The notes beneath the pieces were generated by a model that had not been told where the DNA came from, did not search any database, and worked only from the letters and a program-made list of their open reading frames with translations. 44,012 bases of DNA from positions 1 to 44,012 of the forward strand of contig JANBQS010000054.1 of assembly GCA_027577415.1 (NCBI GenBank), given 5' to 3'. Every line of letters begins with the position of its first letter. Within the stretch, counting starts at the first letter, position 1. Below, piece by piece: positions 1 to 30,727 of this stretch. The DNA comes from Coemansia sp. RSA 922. Taxonomy: Eukaryota > Kickxellomycota > Kickxellomycetes > Kickxellales > Kickxellaceae. Position numbers and translations under genes: made by a program.

Positions 1-514
1 TGACGCCCGCAGTCCAGACCTAAAATTACCAGCTTCTGCATGGGGCGGCAGACCGGTGCTCGTTTCTGCGTGTCCCTTTGATTTCTCCCACTGTCAAAAC
101 GGGCCCGTTAGCCAGCGTCACCCCAACCACCAGGCTGTGCCCTGGGAGGCAATGGGTGGGGGAGGGTAGGCAATTCATTGTCAGATGCCCATCGTTCCAC
201 CTCTCCATGCACGCTTTGTTCTTCCAGGCCCAATCGGGCGGAAGTGCTCGCTCTGCGGTAGAAGCCTCTTCTGAGCGGAGGCATTCCCTCCCCCCCACGT
301 TCCTGCCAAATAGCTTGCTCTCTCCTCCTCCCCCCTCTTCATGTTCCAAAAGCGCAGCACTTGTGTTTCCTCTTCCCAAGCTCTCGTGTACTAATTTTTC
401 TTTACCACCTATTTATCTCTAATCTTTTTTTATTGGACTGCGTAGACCGACTCTGCATCAACTTTATTGGCTGAACACACCAGACCGCCACTACACGCAC
501 ACCTAGGTCGCCCT
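1..514. other. Upstream region of the SEC2-like gene; no supported gene
   Basis: Open frames exist on both strands here but overlap each other, begin at non-ATG codons or have no recognisable protein features, so I do not call them. The part from about 285 to 430 is strongly C/T-rich on the + strand, as are the leaders of several other genes in this window, and probably belongs to the promoter or 5' leader of the gene starting at 515. The left edge could contain the flank of a gene outside the window. Confidence 0.5.
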
Positions 515-8790: not shown

Positions 8791-8921
8791 TGGCTGGATT
8801 TTGCAAACAGAAGTACGAAAAATATTATAATAGAGAAATATGTATAAATGTAGAGGAAAGAGAAAAGGTTGATATTCCTTTGCCATCCACCCTGCGTTAA
8901 ATACCATCTATCTTCCCCCTT

Positions 8922-9250
8922 CGACTCTCCAGTCAAGCGCTCACCGACTGAAGAAGCAAAAGGGGGAATTGATGATTGGAGTGCAGCTGTCTTTTTAAGA
9001 AAGGCAATCAACGAAAACGGATACTATATTGCGAATATCTGAAAAAGAGCGCTAGAAAGCTGCCATTTATTTTTTTGGCTGAAACGCCCGTCTTTTGCTG
9101 TACTTGAGCGGTTCTTCTAAGATATTGTTTTCAACTTTTTAAAACCACTTACTATTCTTGGTTGCTTACTTGATCGAAAGAATTTGAAAAAGCTGCACGC
9201 TGCTCTAAACAAAGTGCTGTGGCTGTCTGTCTCCTTTTCTCCAGAGAGAA
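8922..9250 (-). repeat. Upstream repeat P1, copy 3
   Basis: A more diverged P1 copy lying upstream of the small gene that starts at 8790. It shares the 17-bp block CGACTCTCCAGTCAAGC (8922-8938) with copy 1, the motif AAAGGCAATCAACG (9000-9013) with both other copies, and TTTTGCTGTACTTGAG near 9093. The TTGCAC inverted repeat of the other copies is not preserved here. Confidence 0.65.
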
Positions 9251-9450
9251 ATTATTCCCTTTTTCGTTGCAACATTGGCTTTGTATGGCAAGTACCGGGG
9301 ACTGTTGGAATTGGAGAGGACATAATCAATGACAATTAAACACAGTTCCTCTGTCTAGCTAGAGTATAAAATTGTGAACAATAAGACACCACTCAATTCT
9401 TGGAGAGGCATTGCCTGTAGAGCCCCTATTCCGACATTTGTTTATAGCTG

Positions 9451-9621
9451 CTAACAGATCTTTCCCGGCCAATTCAGTGTTGAGGTATTGAGAGCGCCAA
9501 CAAATGGATTCTGGAACACCACTGCAGCATCTGTTAACAACTGACGGCTTACCTTTAGATTCTTGAATGTACCAGCAGATTCCGCCAAGCTCAGGTTGGC
9601 TATGGACCTTTTCTTCAACAT
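9451..9621 (-). pseudogene. Possible fragment of a small orphan gene (56 codons)
   Basis: An ATG-initiated open frame from 9621 encodes 56 aa; the frame stays open to 9669 only with a TTG start. The segment AVVFQNPFVGALNTSTLN is faintly similar to IFVIGRNTWNPASSANTN of the 31036 gene. It lies between two better-supported family genes on the same strand. It lacks the rest of the family pattern and an obvious TATA box, so it may be a remnant or chance. Confidence 0.25.
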
Positions 9622-9781
9622 ATATTGTCTTGTTGTTCCCCCAAAGACATAGCCGAGAGCCAAACTCAAGCCATTTCTACTTAGCCCCTTCTTGCATAGC
9701 TTTTCCGCCTGAAATTCTCAAAAAACAGCATTTCCATTTAACATATGTTATTTTAAAGTAAACCTAATGTGTTTGTTCTAA

Positions 9782-10132
9782 CTATTCTGTAAAATAGGTA
9801 AACCCTTCTTCTGAACAGTTGACAGAGTAACCATTATTTGTGGTATTCCAGTTTCTAATCAGGTCGTGTCCTGTACCTGGCGAAGGTAAACTGGGCTGGA
9901 TATCATCAGCCTTGGAATCTATAAAATCCCGAATCTCTTGGGTATCATCTCCAGTATACACAATAAATACCTTGGATGGCAAATCTGTCGTCAATAGTCC
10001 CTCGATAAAAGGACCTAATTCCGCAACAGTCAAATCGGTCTTGTTGAAGGCTTTAATTATGCAGGGATTGGGATACTGTGCTAGAAATGCCTCTAGGCCT
10101 TTCTTACTATTGGTTTTAAATACTTGGTCCAT
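9782..10132 (-). CDS. Small orphan protein, alpha/beta group (116 aa)
   Basis: Function unknown. The start is the ATG at 10132; upstream in-frame sequence is low-complexity leader. Predicted elements are an N-terminal helix (KKGLEAFLAQY), a strand (CIIKAFN), the LGPFIEGLL helix shared with the 8362 gene, a strand (KVFIVYTG) and an acidic helix (DDTQEIRDFID). The KVFIVYTGDDTQEI region aligns with SFCIFIGGADDYKEL of the 34795 gene, grouping the three. A consensus TATA (TATATAAAG on the minus strand, 10242-10250) lies about 110 bp before the ATG, and repeat P1 copy 2 follows farther upstream. No signal peptide or membrane segment is seen. Confidence 0.65.
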   Translation of the reverse strand: MDQVFKTNSKKGLEAFLAQYPNPCIIKAFNKTDLTVAELGPFIEGLLTTDLPSKVFIVYTGDDTQEIRDFIDSKADDIQPSLPSPGTGHDLIRNWNTTNNGYSVNCSEEGFTYFTE

Positions 10133-10241
10133 GGTCCTTGCAATAATACACTTGTGTGATGTTACTATAAGAGATATGTATAGGGAAAATGTTGGTGAAA
10201 GAAAAAAAAAAAGTGGCATGCCCTCCTTGCCCCCTTTCCTT

Positions 10242-10690
10242 CTTTATATAGTGGTTTTGAAGCATTGACCTACTTTTAAATCCAGGCACTTTGCAATGGA
10301 TAAAGACAAAAAAGGAGGTTGGGGATAGAACCGCAGTTTTCTTTTACTAAAGGCAATCAACGCAGGTGAAGACTTGCACAATAGTGCAACAAGTTGAGAA
10401 AAGTGCAATTTTTGCATAAAATACCCCATTTTTTTGCTGTACTTGAGCAGCTCTTCAAAGGAGGTGGTGATTCTGTTTGTACTCTTTTACTCTTTGCTAT
10501 CCTCAGTAGCCAGCATTTCAAAAAAAAAAAAAAAAGACTTTGCCAACTTCAGCTCTCTTTGAAACTGCTTTTGGAATATTTTCCACTGCCATTTCTTCCC
10601 AAAAATAAAAAGAAGACACGTTCTTGCCACTCCACATCCCATTGGCGCTCATCATAATGTCAGCTGACAGCGAGACTTGAGCAACAGAAG
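10242..10690 (-). repeat. Upstream repeat P1, copy 2, including TATA box
   Basis: Core 10331-10690 matches 7793-8148 nearly collinearly (360 versus 356 bp). It contains a perfect inverted repeat TTGCAC-AATA-GTGCAA at 10374-10389 and AAAGGCAATCAACGC at 10350-10364. The TATA box at 10242-10250 precedes the small gene starting at 10132. The distal end abuts the 5' region of the ADCK1-like gene on the other strand, so this block may influence both genes. Confidence 0.75.
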
Positions 10691-10886
10691 AAAAGGTGTT
10701 GAAAAATTGATCTCAGGCTTGTAATTCCCTGTCAGGTAATAAATCAGTTGATTGATTAGTGGAGGGTTGGCACGAAAGTCAATGCTGACAGTAAAATGGT
10801 CTCACGGGCTCCAGCGAATTGCCTCTTTCTTTAGTAATTTCTTTATTTTCAATTTCTTGCATTTCAAAGTCGACTCTGTTTGTAGT

Positions 10887-12693: not shown

Positions 12694-13929
12694 TTATCTC
12701 AAGTACTGCTTGTTGAGCTCACGGCCAATAAGCATACGACGGATCTCGCTAGTTCCGGCGCCAATCTCGTAAAGCTTAGCGTCACGAAGGATGCGTCCAG
12801 TCGGGTAGTCGTTGATGTAGCCGTTTCCACCCAAACACTGGATAGCATCGAGGGCGACTTCGGTGGCACGCTCAGCGCTATAGAGAATAACGCCGGCACA
12901 GTCCTTGTTACTGATCTGGCCTAAATCGCATGCTCTGGCGACAGCATAAACGTAAGCGCGGGAGGCATTTAGTTTCGTATACATGTCGGCCAATTTGCCC
13001 TGCATCAGCTCAAAGGTGCCAATGGGGGCGCCAAACTGGTGACGCTCATGCACATAGTCGGCAGTAACATCCATGGCAGCTTGCATCAGACCCAGGGGGC
13101 CGCCCGAAAGAACCAGGCGCTCGAGGTCCAGACCTGACATAAGCACGTATACGCCGCGACCGACTTCTCCCAAAACGTTCTCTTTGGGTACTTCGCAGTC
13201 TTCAAAGACTAGCTCGCAGGTGTTGGATCCGCGCATGCCCAGTTTATCAAGTTTCTGGTGGGTGCTGAACCCCTTGAACCCCTTTTCGATAATAAAGGCA
13301 GTAATCTTGTTCTTCTCCATATCAGTCTTGGCATAAACGACCAGGGTATCTGCATCGGGTCCGTTGGTGATCCACATTTTGTTGCCGTTCAGGATATACC
13401 GATCGCCCTTCAAGTCAGCACGCAGTTTCATCGACACCACGTCAGAGCCTGAGCCTGGCTCGGACATGGCTAGGGCTCCGACATGGTCACCAGAAACCAA
13501 CTTGGGCAAGTACTTTGCTTTTTGCTCTTTGGTTCCGTTGCGGTTAATCTGGTTCACACACAGGTTCGAATGAGCACCGTAGCTTAGGGCCACCGACCCC
13601 GAGGCACGCGAGATCTCCTCCATGGCTATGGTGTGCGCAAAGTAGCCCATGTTCACGCCGCCGTATTCCTCAGGCACGGTCATGCCCAGGAGCCCCATGT
13701 CGCCGAACTTTTTCCACATGTCCGCGGGGAACGCATTGTCACGGTCGATTTGCGACGCGCGGGGAGCCAGCTCGCGCTGAGCAAACGACGAAACGGCTTC
13801 ACGGAACTCCTCTTGCTCAGTTGACAGCCCAGCTATAGCCGTGTTGTAAGTGCTCAGACGAGAGAGCTGCGTGGTAGGACGGATAGTGACGCTGGGGCGT
13901 AGCGCCCGTGCAAACTGACGGCAAAACAT
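12694..13929 (-). CDS. IVD: Isovaleryl-CoA dehydrogenase, mitochondrial
   Basis: FAD-dependent acyl-CoA dehydrogenase of leucine breakdown, oxidising isovaleryl-CoA to 3-methylcrotonyl-CoA in the mitochondrial matrix and passing electrons to ETF. The 411-aa product has an Arg-rich presequence ([18 protein letters not shown]) and the family blocks [30 protein letters not shown], and [22 protein letters not shown]. Glu270 within [12 protein letters not shown] is at the position of the isovaleryl-specific catalytic base in helix G, distinguishing it from short/medium-chain enzymes whose base is near the C-terminal end. It is tail-to-tail with the ADCK1-like gene, only 58 bp apart. The gene is missing from S. 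cerevisiae, which helps the taxonomic inference. Confidence 0.96.
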
Positions 13930-14132
13930 GGCTAAAGAGAGAATAAAAAAGGTACGAGTTTGTTCTGACAGATAAAAAAAAAGAAGTAGCAGAAACGAAT
14001 GGTGAAGAATGGTGGCACAACACCACCCCGGGACTCTTTATTACATGCTATTATCTTTTTTTCACAAAAACCCGTGGGAAAATAAATTAACGTCGATCAT
14101 TTTGGCCATGTGATGCTCCTTATCCAGCGTTG

Positions 14133-16328
14133 TCAGTTCGTGGTCCACACAGCGCGCTTGACAGAGTCTTGGGTCTTTAAGCTCTGGGCCTCAATGCGCT
14201 CCTTGGCTTTCTTCAAGTCGCTCCATGCCTTGGACGAACCATGAGTCAAGCGCAAGATCAAGTTCATAGCCGACCCTCGAGTAATCAGCCCCTTATCAGC
14301 CATGTCAACAACAGGCGGGGCATCACTGCGAAGAGCAGAGGATATCTTGACTACCGTGGTAGAGGTCCTAGTGCGCCTGGTTTTCGGCTGCGCAGCGGCT
14401 TCTGACGACGCCCAGGCATGCACAGCCTGCGGTATATCCATGCCTAACTTGGACAGAGTAGCCAGCTGACGCACAGTCGGAGGTTTGGATCGCCATGAAG
14501 CCCGACGGTTCATCAGGCAGAGCTCGAAATGCTGCATGTTGGACATTGCCAATGTATCCATACCGCGAATAGCGCTCTCAAGACACTCAGAAGACAAGTC
14601 AAGAATCGCCTCCTTTGTATAGCTCATTACCTTACTCGCCTTCTTATTTGTATCTGTAGGACGCGAGACAGAAGCGGTCTTGTATGTCTTGGCTTTGCGA
14701 TGGCTGCCATACCACATTTCTTTTTCTCGGTCCTGGTGGCGGTTGACAAAGTACAGGTTATTGCCGTGAGACAAAAGATATCGGTCGGGAGTCAGGCAAA
14801 CCCAGGAGAACGGACTATGTTGGAGCAACCGCATGTCGCCGCTCGAAATAGCCTCAAGACATTGGTTTCGCGAATCCCTGGCCATAAAAGTAGCTGAAGT
14901 ATTAGTTGACGCTGAGAAAAAATCCAGCGGGCTTAGATGTTCGACTGCGACAAACCCGAGCTCCTTGAGCGATCCCAGGGTATCCGGCATATTAAACCGA
15001 GGCTGCTGACCGGCCATTTCTTCGAATCGACGTACCATCTCGGCGTCCTTTCCCAACCGAGTAAGGCCGGTGGCAGCCTCGTTTTCCAGCTCCTGGCGTT
15101 GCTCTTCCAGCTGTTGCATCATGGCTTCTTGATCCAAAACATTGGTATCGTTGAGAACCAGAGCAGGGTCCAACCCCAGCAAAGTGGGGAGCGTGATGAG
15201 CGACACGGAGCGTCGAAACGAATCGACAAAGTCAATAACCAAGCAGTCCTGTTTATTGGGGCTCTTGCGCATGCCGCGGCCTAGCATCTGCTGGAACAAC
15301 ACTGAGCTGCGAGTGGGCCTCGCCATCATCACACAGTCGATATTGGGAATATCCGTACCTTCAGTCAAGATACCGCAGTTGACGAGTACGGGCAATGTGC
15401 CTGACCTAAAGTCGCTCAAAATGCGCTCGCGCTCGGCTGTCGCCGTCATACCAAACACTGCCTCGGCCTTCGTTCCATAATGTATAAAAGAGGCAACCAG
15501 CTCCCGAGCATGAGCGACATCGACGGCAAACACCAAAGTAGATTTACGCTTCTCCGCCAATGTGGCATGAGCCCTAACTATAGCCAAATTGCGAGTATCC
15601 ACGTTGACTACCTTGGATAACGCTGCGGTGGCAAAGTCACCGGCTTGACTACGTACTCCATCGATGCTACAGGTAGTACGTACGGTGGTGATTCGCATGG
15701 GGCAGAGCCAGCCCTCGCGAACCATATCGAGGAAGGGCTTTTGGTAGACGATTTTATCAAACACATCAGTCAACCGTAGTCCATCGTGGCGATGCAATGT
15801 AGCTGAACAGCCCCAAACAAATGGCGCTTGGTCGCCTTGGAAATGCTCCAGAATACGCGTGTATGACGATGCCGCTGCATGGTGCGCCTCATCAATGATA
15901 ATGCACTTGTATCGGCTCGCATCGTATCTTTGCAATCGTGAGCTATGAGCCCGGCCTAAAGTAGCTACACTGGCTACTATGACGTCGGCGGCTGGGTTGG
16001 CTTGTCTGGTGCCCTGATCGATTGCTATACGTAGTTGTGGGGACGCTGCTTGGATCTGTCGTGCTGCCTGCTCTAATAGTTCTTCGCGGTGTGCCAGTAC
16101 CAATGTCTTGGTGGCTAGTTCTGTCGGCGCGGGTACCTGTTGTATGAGGTTCGAGAATACTACTGTCTTGCCACTGCCAACAGGCAATGACACTGCCTGA
16201 CGTCTGACTCCAGCGCGTAGTAAGGACAGACAAGTGTCTATGCATTCTTGTTGGTACGGCCGCAGCGTATGTGCAAAGCGACACAACAGTCGAGGTGGCT
16301 GTCTGGTAGCTATTGTTGCTGATAGCAT
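14133..16328 (-). CDS. IRC3: Mitochondrial SF2 helicase, Irc3-like
   Basis: Superfamily 2 DEAD/H-type helicase resembling yeast Irc3, a branch-point DNA helicase that maintains mitochondrial DNA. The 731-aa product starts with a basic presequence-like N-terminus (MLSATIATRQPPRLLCRFA). Helicase motifs are clear: LRPYQQECI (Q-motif-like, 22-30), Walker A GSGKT (51-55), DEAH (146-149), SAT (175-177), TEGTDIP (about 322-328) and the arginine-finger motif QMLGRGMR (347-354). The C-terminal 350 residues lack recognisable domains, as in Irc3. Start at ATG 16328; no intron needed. Downstream 203 bp separate it from the IVD start codon. Confidence 0.88.
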   Translation of the reverse strand: MLSATIATRQPPRLLCRFAHTLRPYQQECIDTCLSLLRAGVRRQAVSLPVGSGKTVVFSNLIQQVPAPTELATKTLVLAHREELLEQAARQIQAASPQLRIAIDQGTRQANPAADVIVASVATLGRAHSSRLQRYDASRYKCIIIDEAHHAAASSYTRILEHFQGDQAPFVWGCSATLHRHDGLRLTDVFDKIVYQKPFLDMVREGWLCPMRITTVRTTCSIDGVRSQAGDFATAALSKVVNVDTRNLAIVRAHATLAEKRKSTLVFAVDVAHARELVASFIHYGTKAEAVFGMTATAERERILSDFRSGTLPVLVNCGILTEGTDIPNIDCVMMARPTRSSVLFQQMLGRGMRKSPNKQDCLVIDFVDSFRRSVSLITLPTLLGLDPALVLNDTNVLDQEAMMQQLEEQRQELENEAATGLTRLGKDAEMVRRFEEMAGQQPRFNMPDTLGSLKELGFVAVEHLSPLDFFSASTNTSATFMARDSRNQCLEAISSGDMRLLQHSPFSWVCLTPDRYLLSHGNNLYFVNRHQDREKEMWYGSHRKAKTYKTASVSRPTDTNKKASKVMSYTKEAILDLSSECLESAIRGMDTLAMSNMQHFELCLMNRRASWRSKPPTVRQLATLSKLGMDIPQAVHAWASSEAAAQPKTRRTRTSTTVVKISSALRSDAPPVVDMADKGLITRGSAMNLILRLTHGSSKAWSDLKKAKERIEAQSLKTQDSVKRAVWTTN

Positions 16329-16937
16329 GTGAGGGGGAAAGATGCAAAAAAAAATTAGAGTTGAAAGGGGGAGTGACTATCCAAAAAAAAAAAAAAACAC
16401 CCCCAGCCAGTGAGTGTGAATACCGTTTGTGTCACTTTGAACTGAATACGGTTATGGTACAGTTTATATAAAGACCCTGGATTCGTAATAGTGCTTCTGG
16501 ATTGGTCCGTGTTAGTGCATGACTGAGGAACTCACACATGCGGATTTCAAGTGTACTTGCACTATACCGTTTCTATCGATAGCTTTGGGAGGGCTGAACT
16601 TGCAAGCTTGCTCCCTTTGGCCCTGACATTGGAGTGGAGCGTCTAAAAGAAGCAATAAACCAAAAATAAACCTGCTCTAATCGTACAGTATTGTTTACCT
16701 CTTTTTTTCTTTTTCTTTTTTTCATCCGTCCCTCCCTTTGCCAAAGAAAGTCGTATAAAAAAAGGGGGGAGAGTTTCCACCACAACCGCCACAAAAAAAA
16801 AAAGAAATAAACCTCGTTCACGTGCGTGTACCTAAGAGAAAAAAAAGGTAACTCAGTTCCTCTTTTTTTTTTCTCCTTTAATTTCACTTTTTCTTTATTG
16901 TAAATACTTTTTTCTTTTATTTTTCAATTCGCCTCAA
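16329..16937. other. Divergent promoter region between IRC3-like and DHHC genes
   Basis: No gene is seen. The region has poly-A and poly-T tracts, a TATA-like GTTTATATAAAG near 16461-16472, and a long T/C-rich leader from about 16690 to 16937 preceding the + strand start. It presumably serves both divergent genes. Confidence 0.6.
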
Positions 16938-18854
16938 ATGCCGACCAATGCTGGCGGCCCGACGTCGCCCACGCAACCACAGCCGCACCGCCAGACAATA
17001 GTACGACTATCGCCGCCTCTGTCACCGAACCGCCATACTAGTCGCACCTCTGGCGACGCATACGATGATGAAGGTCGGGTGTATACGCCGCGTACACTGG
17101 TCGAGTCAGCAGCGAAAAGAGCTACCAACAACCAGCCTCCGTTGGCTCAGACCAGAGACCACATTCGAGAACACATTAAATACCAAACACCAGCGCAAGA
17201 GTCAGGACAAGAACAAAGTTACAAACGAGCCCAGGCCTCACCGCCGTCAAACCCCGAACAAGGCCGCGACTCTTCGGATGGCGGTCAGCGGCACTTTAAG
17301 CCCTTGTCCTCTTTTCCATCTCCACTTCCACCTATATTGGCACTGCCGCCTGCTGGCCACAGTAGTATTCAGTTTTTGGGTCCGCAGCGCCAAACTGTTC
17401 TGCGCATGACTATGGATGATAGCGCTCCGACCTCACCGCATACACGCAACAGTAGTAGCGACGGTACTGCTACTAATAGTCAGGACACGCCCGAGCACTC
17501 GCAGGCCCTACAGTCTCGACGTCTGCCGCCGCAGCGACCCCAGCCTATTGGCGTTTATGAACCAGTTGAGGAGAAGGTGTTGAGTCGGCATCCCGAGCGC
17601 TACACTAGCGACGGTCTGCGGCGAAAAGAGCCCATCTACCGGCTCTATGACCATGACAACTGCCATCCGCTGTGCGGTCGCACTGTCACGGGCGGGCGTC
17701 CGGCACCGTTTGCCATAGCACTGGTTATGATGACCACGCCCATCGTGTTGTTTGCCGTCTTTGTGTGTCCCTACCTGTGGAACGATTTGCACAAAGCCGC
17801 TGTCATTGTCTTTATCTACTTGGCTGCCTTGTCCTACGCCTCGATGCTCATGGCCTCATTCACCGATCCGGGTATTATCCCACGCAACCTCGATGCTATT
17901 ACTTTGCCCGATGGCTATGCCGTTGACGTAAACCCCAACGCTCAAGAGCCCAGTCGTCCTCAATCTTTGCCACCTATGCCGCCCGGTGATATTACAGTGC
18001 CTGGAGGGAAGAAGCGGCGTGGGTCAGAGCCACGTGAGTCTCAGAAACAACGTCCACCGATGCAGTATTATGACCGGCTACCGCCACCTTGGATTCACGT
18101 AGGAGCTCCTGGACGTCACAGCGGCCCACTAAGTGTCTACGATCCCGTAGCACCGCCTGGAAGCGCGCAACGGCCGGTATCGGATTCTTACCGGATGTAT
18201 CCGCCGACTACAAAGCTAGTGACTATCAACGATGTCAGCGTTCGACTGAAATACTGCGACACATGTCGTATCTACCGGCCACCCCGCGCCTCACACTGTC
18301 GTAGTTGTGACAACTGTGTTGAGAACGAAGACCACCACTGTATCTGGCTTAATAACTGTATCGGTCGACGGAATTACCGCTACTTTTACTCGTTCCTCTT
18401 TACAATCTCTGTACTGGCGCTCTACATTATCGCATTTTGTCTCGTCAGACTCATTCGTCCTATCCATCAGCATTATGACGGTGGGGGCGAAGTGCCGACG
18501 ACATTTGGTCAGAGTGTCAAGCATCATCCTATGGTTCTCGTGTTGTTGCTCTATGTCTTTGCTCATACGGGGATGGTTGGTGGCTTGTTTGTCTATCATA
18601 CTATCTTGATTAGTAGGAATATGACTACACACGAGTTGCTTGGCGCTAGACACGCTCAGCAGAATGACCCGGATTCTTCTTCGCGTCAGTTCCGATCCCC
18701 CTTTTTCTTTTCTGCTACTAGTCCCTACTCTAAGGGCTCTTGCTTGAGTAATTGGGCGGTTGCTCTTTGTAGTCCTATGGTTCCAACTAACGTACAGTGG
18801 CGCGCTCGTGTGGATCCTGAGGGAATAGAGGAACTGGTTCCTCTCCGCCGATAA
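16938..18854 (+). CDS. DHHC palmitoyltransferase, Erf2-like
   Basis: Protein S-acyltransferase of the ER/Golgi membrane, likely the Erf2/ZDHHC9 type that palmitoylates Ras-like proteins with a partner subunit. The 638-aa product has a 220-residue disordered Pro/Ser/Gln-rich N-terminus, two membrane segments (APFAIALVMMTTPIVLFAVF and the one ending SYASMLMASF), the DPG motif (TDPGIIPRNLD), then a cysteine-rich domain (LKYCDTCRIYRPPRASHC ... CDNCVENEDHHCIWLNNCIG) with catalytic C468 in DHHC. Two further membrane segments follow, then the TTxE motif (TTHELLG). All family landmarks are intact. The extended N-terminus and the roughly 100-residue linker between DPG and the CRD are longer than usual. 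Start at ATG 16938. Confidence 0.93.
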   Translation: MPTNAGGPTSPTQPQPHRQTIVRLSPPLSPNRHTSRTSGDAYDDEGRVYTPRTLVESAAKRATNNQPPLAQTRDHIREHIKYQTPAQESGQEQSYKRAQASPPSNPEQGRDSSDGGQRHFKPLSSFPSPLPPILALPPAGHSSIQFLGPQRQTVLRMTMDDSAPTSPHTRNSSSDGTATNSQDTPEHSQALQSRRLPPQRPQPIGVYEPVEEKVLSRHPERYTSDGLRRKEPIYRLYDHDNCHPLCGRTVTGGRPAPFAIALVMMTTPIVLFAVFVCPYLWNDLHKAAVIVFIYLAALSYASMLMASFTDPGIIPRNLDAITLPDGYAVDVNPNAQEPSRPQSLPPMPPGDITVPGGKKRRGSEPRESQKQRPPMQYYDRLPPPWIHVGAPGRHSGPLSVYDPVAPPGSAQRPVSDSYRMYPPTTKLVTINDVSVRLKYCDTCRIYRPPRASHCRSCDNCVENEDHHCIWLNNCIGRRNYRYFYSFLFTISVLALYIIAFCLVRLIRPIHQHYDGGGEVPTTFGQSVKHHPMVLVLLLYVFAHTGMVGGLFVYHTILISRNMTTHELLGARHAQQNDPDSSSRQFRSPFFFSATSPYSKGSCLSNWAVALCSPMVPTNVQWRARVDPEGIEELVPLRR

Positions 18855-19012
18855 ATAACCTATGGCATTATTATCCCAATTATTGTTATTCTTATTGATA
18901 TAGCTAGCTAAATAAAAAAAAAAACACTATTGTCTCTTGATGGTCAACCATTATCAGTCTTTATCGCCCCCCTTGACTTGGAAATATCTTGTTGAAGGAG
19001 CAAGGGTAGTTG

Positions 19013-19351
19013 TTAACTGGGGACAACGCCGTCATCGCCATAAATTGCACGCTTGTTTATAAGTTTCAAATAAACATAAATTGGGACTTCTTCTTGAGTC
19101 ATATCAGGACATCTTCCATCACCAGAGATGGTGAACAAGTCCACAAAAAGGTTACCACTTTGGCCAGAACCTCTTACATTACATCTTTTCAAATCAAACA
19201 TAAAATCCATCACCTTTACGTTGAGTTCTTTGGCAATTTTTATTTCAGCCAAGGCCAGATTATCATCGTAATTTAGAATGACCTTTTTGGCTTGTTTCTC
19301 GTCTGTAAACGTTGCGTGTATATAGAACTCGTTTGCTGCAAGGTCACTCAT
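19013..19351 (-). CDS. Small orphan protein, beta-grasp-like group (112 aa)
   Basis: Function unknown. The start ATG at 19351 lies exactly where near-identity with the paralogous upstream region ends. Predicted order is strand (EFYIHATF), strand (KVILNYDD), helix (LAEIKIAKELN), strand (KVMDFMFD), loop with GDGRCPD, strand (IYVYLKL), then a conserved tail AIYGDDGVVPS. This beta-beta-alpha-beta-beta layout resembles ubiquitin-like beta-grasp domains such as the header of Crinkler-type proteins, but no sequence signature proves it. It is about 42% identical by hand to the gene at 20169, and more distantly related to 20973. No signal peptide. Confidence 0.72.
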   Translation of the reverse strand: MSDLAANEFYIHATFTDEKQAKKVILNYDDNLALAEIKIAKELNVKVMDFMFDLKRCNVRGSGQSGNLFVDLFTISGDGRCPDMTQEEVPIYVYLKLINKRAIYGDDGVVPS

Positions 19352-19571
19352 TGGTCGGAAGTTTGTTCAAATAGGGGTGCCCAAAAAAAAGTAAAGAAGC
19401 AAAAAATATAAAATAGTTAGGAAGAGGAGAAAAGGAGGGCAAATCGTCGCAGTCATTAGCACACCCTCTTCTAGCCGTTAGCAGACAACTGTTTGGGGAA
19501 GGGGGAAAATAGAGTGTCCTTTGAAAAAGCTTGGCCACGTCATGTTTTACAGTGGTTCTTTGACTAAAGAA
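19340..19571 (-). repeat. Duplicated promoter/leader, copy 1
   Basis: About 97% identical to 20496-20725, with roughly six differences over about 230 bp including one or two single-base indels. It begins just inside the start codons of the two small genes and runs upstream. It contains an A/T-rich TATA-like stretch (ATTTTATAT on the minus strand near 19405-19415) and A/G-rich tracts. Identity stops abruptly on both sides. Confidence 0.88.
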
Positions 19572-20168
19572 AAAGTACTCATCCTTAGAAAGAGTGTGTC
19601 GTTTGGTTGTCCGTGCAATTGGGCATTATCCTTTTATTGGCCATTATCAGGGAGAGCCCAAAGGCATGGCGGACATTTTTACTATTTTGGGCCTGCCATG
19701 TTTGTACTAGTCTGGGCTAGGCAGGAGACACTTACATAGAGCGAAATGCGGGGTTTTAAAGATAATTGGAAGCTTAAGAGCGTCGGAACAACTGTCGCAT
19801 TTTTAAAAAAAGCTGTTCTACAAAGACTGTTCTTCCCCTTACAGCGTCCTTTGGCGCTGTTTTTTTTCTTCCTCAAAGAAGCCCCCAACACCTTTCAACA
19901 AGAATAATTATTGGAGGACAAAGGAGGGTGACGTCTAAAGTCACAGTGGTGCTCTGAACAAGGGGCAGCGTTTTTTGTCAGCCTTCTGCTGAATTATAGT
20001 TGGGCTTTTTCTGTAATTGTTGTATTTCTAGGATGTTTATTGAATAATGTAATAAAGGCGACCTAAAATGCTAAGCTAAGGTTCTGTATTCAAAACTTAA
20101 TGTATGGTTACTACACGGGTATCCAGACAAAACGCACTATACTGTGCAAATATTCAAAAACTGAATTT
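19572..20168. other. Spacer between duplicated small genes; no supported gene
   Basis: No gene with supporting features. It contains the short inverted repeat GTGAC-GTCTAAA-GTCAC near 19928-19944. The region is unique within the window, so the tandem duplication did not include it or it has diverged beyond recognition. Confidence 0.4.
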
Positions 20169-20507
20169 CTAACAACTGGGTACAATACCGTCATCGCTAT
20201 AAATTGCAGGCTTGCTTGTACGTTTCAAATAAACATAAATTGAGTCTTCTTCTTGAGGCTTATCAGGGCATCTTCCATCCTCCAGGTCAGTAATACGCCC
20301 GTTGAAAACTTTCTCAACTATTTTACTCTCTGGATTTTTTTCTTCATCAAAAATGAAATCCCACACTGTTAATTTGAATACATCGGTAATTGCGTTTTTA
20401 ATACCTTGTAGAGTAGCATTATCGTAACTGAGAATAATCATTTTGGCTTGCCCCTCGCACCCAAACGTTGCATATATAAAAAACTCGCCATCTACAAGGT
20501 CACTCAT
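20169..20507 (-). CDS. Small orphan protein, beta-grasp-like group (112 aa)
   Basis: Paralogue of 19013, same length. Shared segments are the start MSDL, EF-I-ATF, the QAK-IL strand, DFIFD, DGRCPD, QEE-IYVYLK, and the tail AIYSDDGIVPS. The central part (residues about 30-75) is almost unalignable, including the helix and the loop following DFxFD. At the nucleotide level the 3' quarter of the gene is also clearly similar, so divergence is concentrated in the middle. Function unknown; no signal peptide, and a ubiquitin-like fold is only inferred. Confidence 0.72.
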   Translation of the reverse strand: MSDLVDGEFFIYATFGCEGQAKMIILSYDNATLQGIKNAITDVFKLTVWDFIFDEEKNPESKIVEKVFNGRITDLEDGRCPDKPQEEDSIYVYLKRTSKPAIYSDDGIVPSC

Positions 20508-20725
20508 TGGTCGGAAGTTTGTTCAAATAGGGGTGCCCAAAAAAAAGTAAAGAAGCAAAAAATATAAAATAGTTAGGAAGAGGAGAAAAGGAGGGCAAAT
20601 CGTCGCAGTCATTAGCACACCCTCTTCTAGCCGTTAGCAGCCAACTGTTTGGGGAAGGGGGAAATAGAGCGTCCTTTGAAAAAGCTTGGCCACGTCATGT
20701 TTATAGTGGTTCTTTGACCAAAGAA
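20496..20725 (-). repeat. Duplicated promoter/leader, copy 2
   Basis: Partner of 19340-19571. Near-identity starts at the first four codons and extends about 220 bp upstream of the start codon, then is lost at about 20725. Confidence 0.88.
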
Positions 20726-20972
20726 GAGAATCCAAAACTTGAAAGGCACCACAATTAGATTTACTATTCACTCAAGAAATTACCTCTGGCCCACTTTCAG
20801 TAAGCCATTTAGTTTGGGGCGAAGCCTTTGAAAACACAAATTCTGGCCATGGTAAATCTAACCACGTTGAGTAGTTTATGTATTTGAAATAAAAAAAACA
20901 ATGTTAAGGTGGCCGTATGCTAGTCTTTAGAAACAAATGCACGTCAATAATAAGCGTAGTTCACGTATTTGT

Positions 20973-21317
20973 CTATAGTTGCGGTACTACACCAAAATCT
21001 ATCTTTGGAACAGCCTTGTCGTTTGTAAGTACAAGATTTATTTCAACAATATCAATCTTCTCTCCCTCTTCCAACCTACAGGAATCTCTGTAGTCTAAAC
21101 CAATGTCAGTAATCAATTCATCGGCACTATTCGGGTCATTAAGGCTTTTGTAAGCCTCTTCAAATTCAAAATCATCGACACTGATGCTAAAATCCTTTGC
21201 AATTTCTTTTTTAACCTCGCTCACTGTACATGTGGTTGAGTCAAGAAGAATAGGAGAGTGGTGCAAGTTTGGAAATTTGGCATGAAGCAAAAAATACGGA
21301 GCCGCTGGGTTGTTCAT
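20973..21317 (-). CDS. Small orphan protein, beta-grasp-like group (114 aa)
   Basis: Third member of the local group. FLLHAKF, SEVKKEIAKDFSISVDDFEFEE, the late strand IVEINLVL and the tail DFGVVPQL align with FYIHATF, the helix and DF-F(D/E) block, IYVYLK and DDGVVPS in the two neighbours. It does not share their near-identical upstream repeat, so it is an older paralogue. No signal peptide or known motif. Start at ATG 21317; an A-rich leader with ACTATAGGG lies just upstream. Confidence 0.68.
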   Translation of the reverse strand: MNNPAAPYFLLHAKFPNLHHSPILLDSTTCTVSEVKKEIAKDFSISVDDFEFEEAYKSLNDPNSADELITDIGLDYRDSCRLEEGEKIDIVEINLVLTNDKAVPKIDFGVVPQL

Positions 21318-21699
21318 AGGGGTTAAAAATTAAAATAGAGAAAAATAACTATAGGGAGAAAAGAACGTGGATTTAGGCGTTGTTAATGTCTTACTCTGAA
21401 GGGAGGAGAGGGGGGAGACGGAAAAAGGTGGCCTTTTAATCAAAAAGAAATTGCCATGACTTTTCCACTCACATGATCCCTTCAGTCAACGCCTGGGTGC
21501 AGGCAACACTTGGCTACAGTCATCGCCATTCTGATCACTGCGCGAAAGAAAAAAATGTGATCAACGCTTCCAGTCAACCAAAAACACACATTATCGACGG
21601 GAGAAAATAATGTGACAGGCTGTACATCTGTCGCGTGTTGAAATTAGATTGTAAGTGCATGACAAAGCACATTAGACTGAAGGGCCCACTCATTGGGAG

Positions 21700-21707
21700 T
21701 ATAAAAG
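21700..21707 (+). promoter_or_regulatory. TATA box of the 21788 gene
   Basis: TATAAAAG, 88 bp upstream of the ATG at 21788; this spacing is close to that of the minus-strand small genes (about 100-120 bp). Confidence 0.6.
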
Positions 21708-21787
21708 AAAGCAATACTGCGTTCAGGATATTTGCTTCTTTCTCTTCACCAACACACATTTATTTAATTTACTACTTTGTTATCATC

Positions 21788-22102
21788 ATGGCCATTCTTG
21801 TACTCAAACACGGAGTCTCCACTGTAATCCATCCAGACCAAATTGATTCCAAAGACAATATTGAAGAATTGGCACTAAAGAAGTATACAAACAGGTTTGG
21901 CCATGGTAGCTCTGAGCCGTCAGTTTATGCAGTTGATATGGACAACTCAGTCATGAAGCTGACAAAGGTCAACAGCAAGATCTCTAATACCACCGAGTTT
22001 GTTTGTGTGGCTGTAGATGGCGTGATTCAGTATTACTTGGATAGCGGCTCACTCTACTCCCACCTCAGAAGTTGCCTTGCGGTACATAGAAAGTCAGAGT
22101 AG
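21788..22102 (+). CDS. Small orphan protein, beta-grasp-like group (104 aa)
   Basis: The only family member called on the + strand. The open frame reaches upstream to 21635, but the TATA box at 21700 makes the ATG at 21788 the likely start. The segment VYAVDMDNSVMKLTKVNSK...EFVCVAVDG aligns with CFAFEKTGLTRLTKSNARS...EFFHLLMVVGE of the 27271 gene and with ITRITEANVGS...NVYVWFDK of 28816, placing it with that group. Function unknown. The C-terminal tail found in the 27-31 kb members is missing or replaced. No signal peptide. Confidence 0.65.
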   Translation: MAILVLKHGVSTVIHPDQIDSKDNIEELALKKYTNRFGHGSSEPSVYAVDMDNSVMKLTKVNSKISNTTEFVCVAVDGVIQYYLDSGSLYSHLRSCLAVHRKSE

Positions 22103-22270
22103 AGCACCACCCCCCAAGATGAGAAGCGTAGCCAGCATTTTCGTAGTTACCACTTCGTGTGTGTGTTTTTTCTTCTTCTATCGTAGCACTTGTCGATTAC
22201 AAAGCAACACATCATTCAATTTTTAAATATAATTAACCAAATCACTCTGGTAGAGTTCATTGTCTTAGTC

Positions 22271-23605
22271 CTAGTCGTCCGAGTCCTCAGCCGAATCCTC
22301 GTCAACCAAGTTATAGCCGGCGTCTTTCACCATCCGCTTGGTAGCCAGCTTAGTGCAGTACTTGAAATCGAGCTCCGTATTGTCATAGACATCAGTATAG
22401 CTCGATGGCCGAACGTATCCCTCGGGGTAAACAAAGGGCGGGGTGAGGTGCTTGGTGTTGATTGGGCGCGAAATCATACGCTTGTCCTTCCAGGGCTTCA
22501 AATAACCAGCGTTGAACTGGAAAGCATCGCGCTCAGCCTTTCCAGAGACCCTGAACCTAGTAACATGAATGCGGCCACCGCCCAAGCAGGAAATCTCAAT
22601 GTAGGGCACCTTTTTAGCGTGGAACACGGAGCCAGGCGGAAAGTCAGCGAACTGCGGGTTTAACGGCGGGATACTCTTAGGAGCGGCTGATAGTTCCAAG
22701 AACTGAACCCATTTGATCTTGTTTTTAATGCGCATACAAGTGTGCATGGGCTCCTTTAGGTAAAAGGTACGGTGAACGCGGAAAATATCCTCGGCGGTCA
22801 TCTCTTCCCAAACAATGACAGAGTCTTCTCTGTCAAACAGCCTGGTGTGAGATACTTTGGTCTCATCCTGCTCGATCGACTTTTCTCGCGCAAAATCTAG
22901 GTCGCGTAGCACCTTTAACGTCAGTTGTCCGCCCAGCGTACCCATTTCCTCAATCAGCTGAATGGAAGGTGCAGTAGGTGGGATCGGATAGGGCGCCTGT
23001 GCTAGTACTTTGCCGCCGTCGATAACCGATGGGTGAATCTCTTGAATCGTAACTCCAGTTACAGAGTCGCCATTCAATATAGCTGTTTGTATCGGCGATG
23101 GGCCACGATATTTGGGAAGCAAGGACGGGTGGACGTTTATCATGCCGCTCTTGAATCCGTTGATAATGCGGGGTGGCAAAAATCGACCAAAACTCGCCAC
23201 GACGCCAATATCAAACTGACCACTAATATTGCCTCCATCGACCATTGGAAGCATCCAGCTGGACATAGAGGCGGGGAAAGGATGGTGCGCAATGAGACCC
23301 TTTTTCGTGGCATGCTTATCGACTGGTGACTGGTACGTATAAACTTTTTTCTCTCGCTTCATGTAGTACTGCGCCTTTGGACAGACTACTTCCAGGTGGT
23401 CGATGCATGGTTGTGTGCCAACTCGGTTGCCTTCGAGCTCGCGTAGGACGCGTTCGGCAAACTCATCGCTGCCGAAAAATAAAACTTTGAGTCCCGATAC
23501 TGACGCCGATACTGATAGGTTGCGACGACACGTAGGCGACAGCGAAAGCCTGGCTGGGCAGCGTGCCATTTGCCTGGCTTGCATGTACATTGCCGCCACC
23601 GCCAT
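22271..23605 (-). CDS. FMT1: Methionyl-tRNA formyltransferase, mitochondrial
   Basis: Formylates initiator Met-tRNA in mitochondria using 10-formyltetrahydrofolate. The 444-aa product starts at ATG 23605 with a basic Ala/Arg/Met-rich presequence, then the Rossmann start LKVLFFGSDEFAERVL (43-50 core), and the catalytic region NVHPSLLPKYRGPSPI (157-172) followed by GDSVTGVTIQEIHPSVIDGG, which matches the formyltransferase SLLPxxRG and D-G motifs. An unusually acidic C-terminal tail (DEDSAEDSDD) follows the Fmt C-terminal domain. The open frame continues to a TTG at 23659, but no ATG exists there. Downstream it faces the small gene ending at 22102. Confidence 0.93.
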   Translation of the reverse strand: MAVAAMYMQARQMARCPARLSLSPTCRRNLSVSASVSGLKVLFFGSDEFAERVLRELEGNRVGTQPCIDHLEVVCPKAQYYMKREKKVYTYQSPVDKHATKKGLIAHHPFPASMSSWMLPMVDGGNISGQFDIGVVASFGRFLPPRIINGFKSGMINVHPSLLPKYRGPSPIQTAILNGDSVTGVTIQEIHPSVIDGGKVLAQAPYPIPPTAPSIQLIEEMGTLGGQLTLKVLRDLDFAREKSIEQDETKVSHTRLFDREDSVIVWEEMTAEDIFRVHRTFYLKEPMHTCMRIKNKIKWVQFLELSAAPKSIPPLNPQFADFPPGSVFHAKKVPYIEISCLGGGRIHVTRFRVSGKAERDAFQFNAGYLKPWKDKRMISRPINTKHLTPPFVYPEGYVRPSSYTDVYDNTELDFKYCTKLATKRMVKDAGYNLVDEDSAEDSDD

Positions 23606-24090
23606 TTTTGAGACAAGCGTGGATAAAGGAGATAGAGCTAGAAGCTGACAAAGACGCAAAGTAAAGCCTTGCTTGCGTCGATTTAAAATTGTTTTTTGTA
23701 CATGTACTCTTCGATGAAAGCCAAGTAATCTGACTTGCTTACGGGGATCACTTCTGATCGGGCACGTATTTTTTTTTTATTTGAGGGTGTTATTTGGGAG
23801 GCCACGAGTTCCTTTAGCGCCTAAATGTATATCCCTCAAAAAAGACCGCGTGGTGCAAGTGGCGGGATAAAATAAATGACAAAAAACAACTCAGGAACTT
23901 TTCCTCGCTAGATTGCGCGTGCTTGCGGATGAGAGAAACGGTCAGCTGAGCCCAGACAAGCTTTAATAAAAAGGTCATGTCGCTCCATCTTAGATAACCC
24001 GAAAGAGATAGAAAGCATCGCCTTTCTGCTTCGCTCTCTACCTTTTCTTCTTATTTTTGCTACACCGCCTACTACTATCATTTTAAAGAA
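23606..24090. other. Divergent promoter region between FMT1 and arrestin-like gene
   Basis: No gene is seen. It contains a poly-T run near 23768-23777 and a C/T-rich stretch before the + strand start at 24091. No clear TATA box for either gene. Confidence 0.5.
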
Positions 24091-27158: not shown

Positions 27159-27270
27159 TAGTATGCTTTAATAAATTTATTTATATATAAAAAGAAGGAA
27201 AAGTACATCCAAAAAAACCTTCTAAGCTAAAATAGGCCTAATAACTTTCTCTCTTACCCTCCTCGACATG

Positions 27271-27681
27271 CTAACAAAATAAACGAAAATAATCATACCC
27301 TGGAAGATCTGATACGATTTTAATGACATTATCAGTAGGAGGTTCGGTAAACAAGTAGTTCTCTCTCGATTCCACAACCTCTTTGAGAAGGTCTTTATAC
27401 TCCTTTGTACTGGCGGTAGCCTCAGCTTTCTGTCGCTTATCTTCACCTACTACCATGAGTAGATGGAAAAACTCCTCAGCGTGGCCAGTATGAAGACTAC
27501 GTGCATTGCTTTTCGTGAGCCTTGTCAGCCCAGTCTTCTCAAAGGCGAAACAATACCATTCTGGGTAATTTTCGACGACTCTTTCTAATAGAAGACCAAA
27601 ATTGTCGTAAGATGCATCTGATATTACTTTAGTAACACTGAACTTGTCATCGCAGTATCCAACTATAGCGTATTTCACCAT
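27271..27681 (-). CDS. Small orphan protein, beta-grasp-like group (136 aa)
   Basis: Function unknown. The frame is open far upstream to 27990, but conserved leader sequence and the TATA box at 27785-27796 show that the ATG at 27681 is the start. The N-terminus reads MVKYAIVGY (strand), KFSVTKVI (strand), NFGLLLERVVENY (helix), YCFAFEK (strand), then the shared motif TRLTKSNARS and strand FFHLLMVVGE. The C-terminal helix (KEYKDLLKEVVESRENY) aligns with the tails of 28816 and 31036. The N-terminal layout resembles ubiquitin-like headers of fungal Crinkler-type proteins, but no downstream effector domain is present. No signal peptide. Confidence 0.72.
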   Translation of the reverse strand: MVKYAIVGYCDDKFSVTKVISDASYDNFGLLLERVVENYPEWYCFAFEKTGLTRLTKSNARSLHTGHAEEFFHLLMVVGEDKRQKAEATASTKEYKDLLKEVVESRENYLFTEPPTDNVIKIVSDLPGYDYFRLFC

Positions 27682-28059
27682 TCTTGTTTGTACTATCTGT
27701 AGCGGTTGATCAATAAATATACTTGGCAAAGAAGATGTGTGTGGTGGATGTTTTGAAAGTGAGAATGGGGTAGCAGCAGCTTTGTTTTTATAGCAGAAGA
27801 AGGCAGTGTCTTTCTTGTTGAAGGGAAAGCTAGGCAGGGTGAAATCTGCTCTCCCTATCCCATTTTCCCCACAGGCAATCAGCAGTGAGTGGCAACAATG
27901 ACAACAACCCTTAGTATCAAAAGGAATTCGAGCTTGTTTCCAATATATTTGAGACTTTGAGAATGACGTATTTGTCTGCAAAAACGGCAAGCAGCGTACA
28001 TTTCCTCCCTATTTTCTCTTCTAGAAGGCAGCGAAGAAGCTGCATCATCATCCGCAGCG

Positions 28060-28074
28060 CCTTTGCCTCAAAGG
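28060..28074. promoter_or_regulatory. Palindrome CCTTTG-CCT-CAAAGG
   Basis: Perfect 6-bp arms with a 3-bp spacer; candidate binding site for a dimeric regulator of the small genes. About 380 bp upstream of the 27271 gene start. Confidence 0.6.
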
Positions 28075-28210
28075 ATGTCTACGTCATTTGTAATACTGTT
28101 GAGACTTGATAGAGCACGTGTTCCTCTGCATAAACGACGGACAGCGCACATTTCTTCTCCATTTTTTCTCTGAAAAGCAGGTGATACGTCATTATCCCTT
28201 GTTGCACTTT

Positions 28211-28225
28211 CCTTTGTTTCAAAGG
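28211..28225. promoter_or_regulatory. Palindrome CCTTTG-TTT-CAAAGG
   Basis: Same arms and spacer length as at 28060, 151 bp farther upstream. Confidence 0.6.
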
Positions 28226-28815
28226 AATAAAAAACATGACACAATGCACTCTGCCTAAAGAGCTCGGGATGCTGTTAACCACGCCTATCAAATCTCAACC
28301 CTCCTTAGTTGAATGTACAGAATCTGCTGGCTTGCCACTGTCAACCATTGCCTACTCTCCGTTAACAGGTTGTCCTGTAATATTTTGCACATCATTACAA
28401 ACCAAGCCTGTTTATTATTCTTTAGTGGCTCCTCCTTCTAATAGCTATGTCACTGGTAGCCTCCATCTAGTCGATACATGTCATTAACCTCGCCATTATT
28501 TTACATATTCTAGCTAATTATTTTTTTAGTAACATTTTTACTACAAATTGATTTACTAATAGAACATGTATTAGCTGTTGTGCTAGCTTCACATTTATAC
28601 GGACCTAGAAGGTTTGGGCCATGTTGGTGGTGGCTGAGATATTCGGCATAACATGGGAAGGTTCAAAGAATCTGGTCATCTTTTGCTTGACTATGGAATT
28701 TTCTATGAATTTATTTATATGAAGAGAAGGAAAACTACGTCCAAAAACCTTCAATGTGAAAATGGAGCTATTGACTATAACTGGATGACAACTACTGGCA
28801 GGGCTATCAAAATGA

Positions 28816-29211
28816 TTACATGGTAGCAGAGCGGAGACTTGCTGCCAAAATACATTTTTTATTCACATAGGCATGCCCTGCCACATAATCGTTTACTGCT
28901 TTCGAATACGACTGAAAAGCTTTTCATTTTTTTTTACTAAACCTTTTCTCCGCCTGCTCTAGAATTTCAATCTTATCAAACCAAACATAGACATTATCAT
29001 CTTTATCTGTATCCCTAACTGAACCAACATTAGCTTCGGTGATTCGGGTAATCTTGGTATTCTCAATGACTGAAACACCATAGCCTGATTTCTGTGCTGC
29101 TTTTTTTAATAGCGCCATTTCAAACGTTTTTATGTTCTCATTCTCCACTTTGATACTAAGATCAACTATAACATTTTCCCCATCAACATGAACATAACAA
29201 TAATTCGGCAT
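28816..29211 (-). pseudogene. Small orphan gene, beta-grasp-like group, with in-frame TGA
   Basis: From ATG 29211 the frame encodes 95 aa, then TGA at 28924-28926 (codon 96). Past it, the same frame continues for 35 codons to a TAA at 28816-28818. The total is 396 bp, exactly the length of paralogue 31036, and the post-stop residues KAFQSYSKAVNDYVAGHAYV align with its C-terminal region (VFFEDVVAKGNAYI). The TGA is therefore a premature stop, possibly recent. The retained part has the group pattern: strand YCYVHV, strand VIVDLSI, helix KTFEMALLKKAAQ, motif ITRITEANVGS, strand NVYVWF. The truncated protein could still be made and fold. Selenocysteine use is unlikely because no paralogue has Cys there. 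Confidence 0.7.
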
Positions 29212-29441
29212 TTCGTAAGTACTATTTGCAGCAGCGGTTGGTTAATAAATAAATGAGTAGAATATATGTAGTGGTGGTTGTTCTGAAAGTGAAAATAGGC
29301 GACAGCAGCAGCTTAGTTTTTATAGCAGAAAAAGGCTGAGCCCCTCTTGCTGAAGGGATAGCCAGACAAGGCGAAACCAGCGCTCCCCCTCCCCCATTTT
29401 CCTCTGGCAAGAAGCGAGGAGCGGCAACAACGACCACGGCC

Positions 29442-29454
29442 CTTTGTCTCAAAG
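29442..29454. promoter_or_regulatory. Palindrome CTTTG-TCT-CAAAG
   Basis: Proximal palindrome of unit 2; perfect 5-bp arms with 3-bp spacer, about 230 bp upstream of the 29211 start. Confidence 0.6.
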
Positions 29455-29581
29455 AGTATCCAAGTGCTTTTTTAATCGAAGAGTTTGTTTTCAAAGGCAA
29501 CACTCTTTGCACTCCTCCAATTTTTCTATTGGCAATCAACAAATAAAAAGCGCAATTGAAGCCCCATCTAACTGGTGTTTC

Positions 29582-29594
29582 CTTTGAAGCAAAG
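29582..29594. promoter_or_regulatory. Palindrome CTTTG-AAG-CAAAG
   Basis: Distal palindrome of unit 2, 140 bp from the proximal one. Confidence 0.6.
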
Positions 29595-29710
29595 AAACCA
29601 GACATCCTAATTGCAATATAATTTCCGAATTAAAGTGTTTCCATATAGGCAACTTGTTGGTCGGCTGCGTTTTCCAAAAAGGGCGCTGGAGGCCATTGAT
29701 TCATGCCTAT

Positions 29711-30189
29711 CCAACACCCACATTTCTCTTATTTTAATCTGCTTGATCTGCCGCCACCAACTATCGCCTGCTCATTTCGTGGTAGTAGCTTTGTAATTTG
29801 TGCTGAGCTTACAAGCTATGAATTTTATTGTTCTCAACTTTCAAAGTTTAAATTAGTAAAAACTAGAATAACGAAAGATGTGATTAAAAAACTACTCTTG
29901 GCCGCGCTCTCGCGGACCTTTAAGTATATCAGTTCACAAGGCGCTGGTAGTGTAATGTGAGTGACAAATAGTTTAATAGACAGCTGGATTTCTCATTCTG
30001 AGCTTTAATGGCTGCTCGAAATAAGCTCACACAGCAGACCTTGACACATTAGCAACTATCTTGCTTTTTTTTGACATCTAGATTACGCGTTTATATTGTT
30101 TCTCTTTAATGTACTTTCCCAATCTCTTCTCATTGCCATTATTTCTAATGAATAGATGAATGCCACCTTTGACAGCATAATTCACTATT
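29711..30189. other. A/T-rich spacer between cassettes; no supported gene
   Basis: Only short open frames without family features. I see no tRNA, CRISPR or further palindromes of the CTTTG type. Confidence 0.4.
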
Positions 30190-30360
30190 TTATTTTTGCC
30201 TATTATACCGAGTAACAGCCCAACCGTCCCCAAATATTATGATGGTAGCTCTTCCACTAGTTTTATTGCTTTTGTTATTTTCACCAAGATAGAAAACATT
30301 TGACAAAGTAGTCTCACCATTTGCAGAAGCACTTTGGGTAATTTTAAGCTCGCTCTCCAT
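30190..30360 (-). pseudogene. Possible small-gene remnant (56 codons)
   Basis: An ATG frame of 56 aa (starts MESELKITQSASANG). The part LSNVFYLGENN...ATIIIFGDGW loosely matches PIFVIGRN...NVYLFFG of gene 31036, suggesting a fragment of the same group. No TATA core or palindrome pair lies upstream; instead the start is 35 bp from a block (30395-30440) that is also repeated at 28632-28680. A chance frame is possible. Confidence 0.35.
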
Positions 30361-30440
30361 TAGATATTTTAAACGTTAGAGTGGCGTTTTTATGGTGGCT
30401 GAGATATTCAGCATACAATGGAAAAGTTTAAAGAACTTGG

Positions 30441-30601
30441 TGTCACGCAGAATTAGTCAAGATCACTGGATCGGCGGTTTGGACAAGGGTCTGTGGCTTA
30501 GCCGCAGTAGAACGTTGTTATTTAAAAAGAGTTTATTGTTGTTTATAAAATAGAACTCTTTATCTTCTCTTTTATTTATTGAATTACATTTTAGTATCAC
30601 A
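30441..30601. mobile_element. Solo LTR 1 (161 bp) with 5-bp target duplication CTTGG
   Basis: Begins TGTCACGCAG and ends AGTATCACA (TG...CA termini), flanked by CTTGG at 30436-30440 and 30602-30606. The paralogous site in unit 2 (AAAGAATCTGGTCATC, near 28666) is unoccupied, confirming an insertion. It contains a TATA-like TTATAAAATAG. No internal retrotransposon sequence is present. Orientation is undetermined. Confidence 0.8.
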
Positions 30602-30727
30602 CTTGGCCACTTGCTGGCTGGCAATGAATAATATATTATTTATGGATGCAATATTATAAGAAAAAAAACTCCTTCCATAAAACCTTCTCTGTGAAGTAGG
30701 AGCTACCAACTATAACTAGATGACTAG

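Follow-up and report, generated by a model that had tools for sequence, protein, structure and literature searches.

Near-identical upstream blocks above diverged coding cores in a Coemansia small-gene array point to local promoter conversion

The window, that is, the whole 44,012-nucleotide stretch of a Coemansia sp. RSA 922 contig analysed here, carries an array of small orphan genes, whose relatives we sought in the draft assembly (20.4 Mb, 960 contigs). Two array members, gene A (19013..19351) and gene B (20169..20507), both on the minus strand, are, as read from the genomic sequence, complete open reading frames (ORFs) of 112 codons from ATG to stop, to which further exons may belong. Gene A encodes the 112-amino-acid orphan P0001, which ends DDGVVPS and perhaps has a ubiquitin-like fold; gene B encodes P0002, an orphan of the same length. 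Beside them lie gene D (20973..21317, minus strand), an older paralogue encoding P0003 of 114 amino acids, and gene E (21788..22102, plus strand), a small orphan encoding P0004 of 104 amino acids. Genome-wide, gene A has three intact close homologues (B, and the M and B copies on a second contig, C828), together with a copy that is broken and D, a weak paralogue. Protein searches of the genome gave 7 matches for P0001 and 5 for P0002, all in the two arrays and D included; these counts are lower bounds, as short or diverged copies may escape such a search. The window also encodes a V-ATPase B subunit, with its best score against 3j9t_B, the yeast protein.

The DNA upstream of gene A (19352..19571, minus strand) and that upstream of gene B (20508..20725, minus strand) form a shared block, found both by BLAST (97%) and by alignment (98%): over 220 bp, 214 of 218 aligned positions are identical, with 4 gap columns, which agrees with the roughly 225-230 bp at about 97% identity first described here. 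Within it lies a perfect match of 146 bp (19339..19484, minus strand), from -133 to +13, that is, 133 bp upstream and the first 13 coding bases. Beyond -221, the two upstream flanks are unrelated (44%). Coding identity in 30-column windows from +20 runs 70, 73, 50, 60, 67, 26, 40, 73, 93 and 83%, so that it stands at 70% over +20..49, 50% over +80..109 and 26-40% over +170..229 before returning to 73% (+230..259), 93% (+260..289) and 83% (+290..319). The coding divergence is thus U-shaped, and the 3' end of gene A (19013..19111, minus strand) is 85% identical to that of B (repeat D5, 88%). The original prediction of an identity collapse just after the ATG holds in that the fall is abrupt rather than gradual, with sharing to +13; it overlooked the 3' recovery, and its strong protein divergence stands at a measured 47% identity rather than about 42%. 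Where the cores encode the same residue, 5 of 17 codons differ synonymously between A and B, against 4 of 218 promoter positions (Fisher p 1e-4), so synonymous divergence is not equal to promoter divergence. Because these codons differ so often, the cores appear to be older than the homogenisation of the promoters.

A palindrome, TTCTTTGNNCAAAGAA (19556..19571), sits precisely where the shared block starts and marks the distal edge of the A block with one mismatch; its exact counterpart TTCTTTGACCAAAGAA (20710..20725) marks the distal edge of the B block and is an N2 site. The pattern TTCTTTGN(0-10)CAAAGAA occurs 31 times in the 20.4 Mb, against 2 for the reversed control, with a spacing of 3 at 20 sites, 2 at 4 sites and other values at 7; a looser form occurs 11 times in the window, against a shuffle mean of 1.6. 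The four N2 sites lie in the B promoter, in the promoter of the A copy on C828, on contig C251 some 250 bp upstream of a ubiquitin-like paralogue, and on contig C816, which carries the probable allele of the C251 paralogue and where the site lies upstream of no identified gene. Among 19 distinct N3 sites (21 entries, covering all of the 20 in the genome except one on C708), 16 have an ORF of 90-150 amino acids pointing away at 200-750 bp, amounting to 13 distinct ORFs; random window positions satisfy the same definition in 42% of cases. This is a moderate excess, to be read with the related families among the ORFs not being independent. Several small orphans near the palindromes (among the L053-L069 ORFs) share, by eye, a loose 'NVYIFFGSEEEL'-like stretch and may form one superfamily. 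As a lead only, the palindrome resembles the Ste11 TR box TTCTTTGTTY (PMC3416868), a likeness from which an HMG-box factor might be guessed as its binding protein.

The 11.4-kb contig C828 corresponds to window positions 13742-23957, with an alignment identity of 95.3% in its left part (13742-19571) and 88.6% in its right part, across the array. Gene order follows that of the window: helicase, DHHC, three small genes (A, M and B), D and E, with D and E 95% and 93% identical in amino acids between the contigs. On this synteny we call the two contigs allelic, and C828 is probably the other haplotype. Copy number of the close small genes differs, with two in the window (A-B; hereafter wA and wB) and three on C828 (A-M-B; cA, cM and cB). 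Further right in the window, an arrestin-like gene has a single copy in the genome, which fits a draft that is partly collapsed. The cA copy (5277-5614 of C828) loses its frame through a one-base break roughly one third into the sequence; it is probably a broken allele. Between intact copies, coding indels are multiples of three, and promoter indels often are not. The cM promoter is distinct, at 62-65% against the other promoters of the array. In the spacer between A and B (19572..20168), the part adjoining A is 93% identical to the C828 spacer that lies upstream of M, and the part adjoining B is 90% identical to the flank on M's downstream side.

If C828 is allelic, as this contrast presumes, the promoters of the two paralogues on one haplotype are more alike than those of alleles. 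The wA and wB promoters agree at 214 of 218 positions (98%), against 175 of 207 for wA-cA (85%) and 183 of 210 for wB-cB (87%; Fisher p 2e-7 and 7e-6); cA-cB agree at 185 of 210. Upstream of -221, the sequence next to A is the M-type spacer (93%), and that next to B is B's own spacer (91%). The comparison indicates that conversion or unequal exchange within a single haplotype recently homogenised the A/B block, and so favours the promoter gene conversion that had been put forward as a candidate. Run statistics point the same way: the longest agreeing polymorphic run between wA and wB spans 70 of 267 sites, covering alignment columns -150 to +8, and was equalled in 0 of 10,000 column permutations. 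These presume that the rate is uniform along the gene, and the diverged core therefore supplies part of the significance. As several other pairs also gave low values (wA-cB.0012, cA-cB.0004, wB-cB.0055, cA-cM.011, wB-cA.019, and cM-cB 0 of 10,000 with a run at +13..+48), the run test evidently reacts to uneven rates, and it is weaker evidence for conversion than the contrast between paralogues and alleles.

We considered whether a heterozygous tandem array had been misjoined from short reads, giving wrongly paired or collapsed promoters. The locus is tandem and seemingly heterozygous, a 960-contig draft may misjoin such a repeat, and the perfect 146 bp stretch is near common short-read lengths; yet A and B both lie within the single 44-kb contig, the block has kept its four mismatches and its gaps, and the A-adjoining spacer is 93% rather than 100% like its C828 counterpart, which marks it as separate sequence. 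At the junction of the A promoter with the M-type spacer, moreover, the two promoter types share just short words. We regard an assembly artefact as improbable.

Strong purifying selection on a shared promoter, combined with relaxed or fast coding evolution, would need no conversion at all. It gains from the fact that the block begins at a genome-enriched palindrome and may be a real regulatory unit, and from a second orphan family, described below, whose conserved upstream DNA needs no conversion. Between the contigs, however, the promoters differ by 15.5% (A) and 12.9% (B), which does not fall below the divergence of the intergenic DNA around them. In five other intergenic pieces, window and C828 differ by 3-10% each, together 102 of 1,631 positions (6.3%; p 1e-5 against the A promoter and.001 against B); against the three pieces nearest genes (54 of 567, 9.5%), the values are.03 and.19. 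The A and B promoters therefore diverge between contigs at least as much as other intergenic DNA. Promoters as free to change as their surroundings cannot owe a 2% A-B difference to constraint alone, and we give this explanation little credence.

The homogenisation by conversion or unequal exchange that we favour seems to have reached beyond the promoters. The 3' end of wB is 85% identical to wA and 87% to cA, against only 77% to its own allele cB, a second sign of exchange. On C828, cM and cB resemble each other at 92% in codons 1-20, where their agreeing run at +13..+48 lies, and at 85% at the 3' end, and the core of cM is A-like (67-68%); the wA and wB cores are each closest to their own C828 counterparts (93% and 80%). 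Gene ends thus appear to have been exchanged on both contigs, with different partners. The same observations bear on cassette exchange, the original prediction's alternative in which complete coding cores move between fixed promoters as in antigenic variation: the A-like core of cM between B-like ends suits it weakly, but conversion of ends yields the same mosaic, the A and B cores stay closest to their own counterparts, and genome searches with P0001 and P0002, which may miss short or diverged copies, found no promoterless donors, making it a poor prospect.

Between the promoter and the 3' end, the cores (codons 21-80) have followed another course. For the B alleles, wB and cB, we counted 32.5 nonsynonymous differences over 143 sites and 2.5 synonymous over 37 (dN.27, dS.07; Fisher p.013, bootstrap.002), where 11.7 nonsynonymous changes would be expected at the synonymous rate of the flanks. 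Pairwise maximum likelihood (ML) gave an omega of 6.1 over 57 columns (p.0046) and 4.05 over 69 columns (p.014). The whole gene was not significant (ML omega 1.93, p.083; Fisher p.145; bootstrap.13), and the flanking genes show dS of.06-.12 and dN/dS of.05-.59 between window and C828. Core codons for the same residue differ synonymously in 2 of 30 cases between the B alleles, against the 5 of 17 between wA and wB (contrast p.08). The latter count is a safer guide than the wA-wB core dS of.95 (NG86), which is inflated by multiply changed codons. Between wA and the broken allele cA, 8 of 36 and 9 of 73 residues are changed in the two alignable pieces. Averaged over the four intact sequences (wA, wB, cM and cB), omega comes to.85, which does not differ from 1 (p.43). 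Statistically, then, two sequences indicate diversifying selection on the B-allele core, and the diversifying selection first proposed for the genes is borne out there but not in the family average.

Two further clusters of small orphans lie in the window. Cluster 3 (27171-31968) contains three, with ORFs at 27271-27681, 28924-29211 and 31036-31431, all on the minus strand. Their upstream DNA is 74-77% alike over 235-290 bp, ending about 20 bases or less from the ATG, and their proteins are nearly unalignable (identities range from 14 of 126 to 24 of 93 residues). One of these promoters was searched against the genome and found 15 matches; 12 of the 13 inspected head an ORF of 128-136 amino acids starting at -22 to +13 of the expected position, and the thirteenth is the window's own gene at 28924-29211. 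One of these ORFs, L030, begins at a later ATG than that of its near twin L032. Cluster 1 (7724-10694; ORFs 8362-8907 and 9782-10219, both minus) has upstream segments 71-82% alike. Copies of these are dispersed, with 9 matches genome-wide, and the matches with listed ORFs have two or more small-protein types downstream.

The cluster 3 family E3a (129 codons) gave an omega of 1.81 (p.0003) across eight copies, which comprise paralogues and probable alleles (L030/L032 and L039/L040), as estimated with recombination left in. The most different pair shares 49 of 129 residues, with 5 of 46 same-residue codons synonymously different, and pairs down to about 40% protein identity have 6-11% of shared-residue codons synonymously different. 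Promoter identity across the 28 pairs is 66-98%, and in 21 of them promoter divergence equals or exceeds synonymous divergence, so that positive selection alone suffices there. This result counts against conversion as a general cause. Among the 7 exceptions are L039 and L040, whose contigs align at 92.5% over 2.2 kb; upstream, 11 of 14 50-base windows are at 96-100%, and the eight coding windows range over 62-96%, with three below 80%. L073 (1565-3753) and L040 are probably an allelic E3a pair, with near-identical upstream DNA and diverged coding regions.

The earlier reading of such a pattern as typical of antigens or effectors finds no support in the proteins themselves. We saw no hydrophobic signal-like start in the A/B proteins, reading the sequences by eye, and a profile search with 16 family members as input found 11 relatives, all in named Coemansia isolates. 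Weak Pfam ubiquitin matches in relatives, together with a predicted strand and helix order like that of the beta-grasp, suggest that the A/B proteins perhaps have a ubiquitin-like fold, with modest model confidence for A (pLDDT 66.5). The array proteins end VVPS, VPSC, VVPG and VPQL, without the C-terminal diglycine of a conjugatable modifier. Neither P0001 nor P0002 matched a Pfam family at E<=1, and no wtf homology was seen; Pfam contains the WTF family. Elsewhere in the genome, a tandem ubiquitin-like paralogue on L023 (about 2329-3054) is apparently interrupted by a stop, and its counterpart on L026 is open.

Taken as a whole, we think the following account probably correct. A and B are old tandem duplicates in a Coemansia-like fungus. 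Their promoter block, which reaches from the palindrome near -220 to around codon 5, was, if C828 is allelic, recently overwritten from one copy to the other by non-allelic conversion or unequal exchange. The coding cores escaped the overwriting and diverge, in B through diversifying selection between alleles, and all copies would retain one common switch. The small intracellular, perhaps ubiquitin-like proteins might then track a changing partner in an internal conflict. The part of this account that concerns sequence change, local conversion of the promoter block in one haplotype with diversifying coding cores, is well supported. As to role, we infer that internal conflict (allorecognition, killer/antidote or mobile-DNA defence) is most likely, ahead of host interaction, because no secretion-like start was seen by eye, the relatives found are confined to Coemansia, copy number differs between the contigs and, of the documented patterns considered, that of wtf is closest.

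More broadly, these genes could belong to a genome-wide Coemansia arsenal of small intracellular beta-grasp proteins, in several families unrelated in sequence but with a common palindromic switch in the promoter (N2 for the A/B type, N3 for others), spread as tandem units, with promoters kept uniform by ectopic conversion and positively selected bodies, and serving as an allorecognition, killer/antidote or anti-parasite system; we put this forward tentatively and consider it doubtful. If true, this would place a conflict system in a fungus of an early-diverging lineage. Yeasts and filamentous Ascomycota offer well-known examples of such systems, whereas none is known to us from Kickxellomycotina. 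An omega above 1 for the whole gene across eight E3a copies, with few synonymous changes, is unusual and points to conflict, and the palindrome-bounded promoter tract offers a handle for finding the regulator. The evolutionary claims could be tested on existing isolate data, as a review mentions a project that has low-coverage genome data for over 100 isolates and that looked into the diversity of Coemansia as well (PMC10386755).

Three known systems invite comparison. The predicted strand-helix order and the weak Pfam ubiquitin matches in relatives recall ubiquitin-like, beta-grasp proteins; unlike these, A and B lack a C-terminal diglycine and are otherwise orphan in sequence. The var genes of Plasmodium have typed upstream regions, encode large exported surface antigens and are expressed in a mutually exclusive manner. 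They likewise combine a small number of promoter types with many different coding regions and differ in their products, as the A/B proteins are small and probably intracellular. By analogy, the A/B system works like the wtf family of S. pombe, with no membership in that family implied. The wtf genes, according to PMC6526906 and PMC9562144, are likewise multicopy, lineage-restricted and fast-evolving fungal genes whose copy number varies between isolates, and their non-allelic conversion includes promoters, with an upstream region of 133-289 bp conserved (PMC6526906). The majority of wtf genes contain five or six exons, whereas A and B read as single ORFs of 112 codons; wtf drivers produce poison and antidote transcripts; and wtf conversion is not restricted to one part of the gene, whereas here the core appears to be spared.
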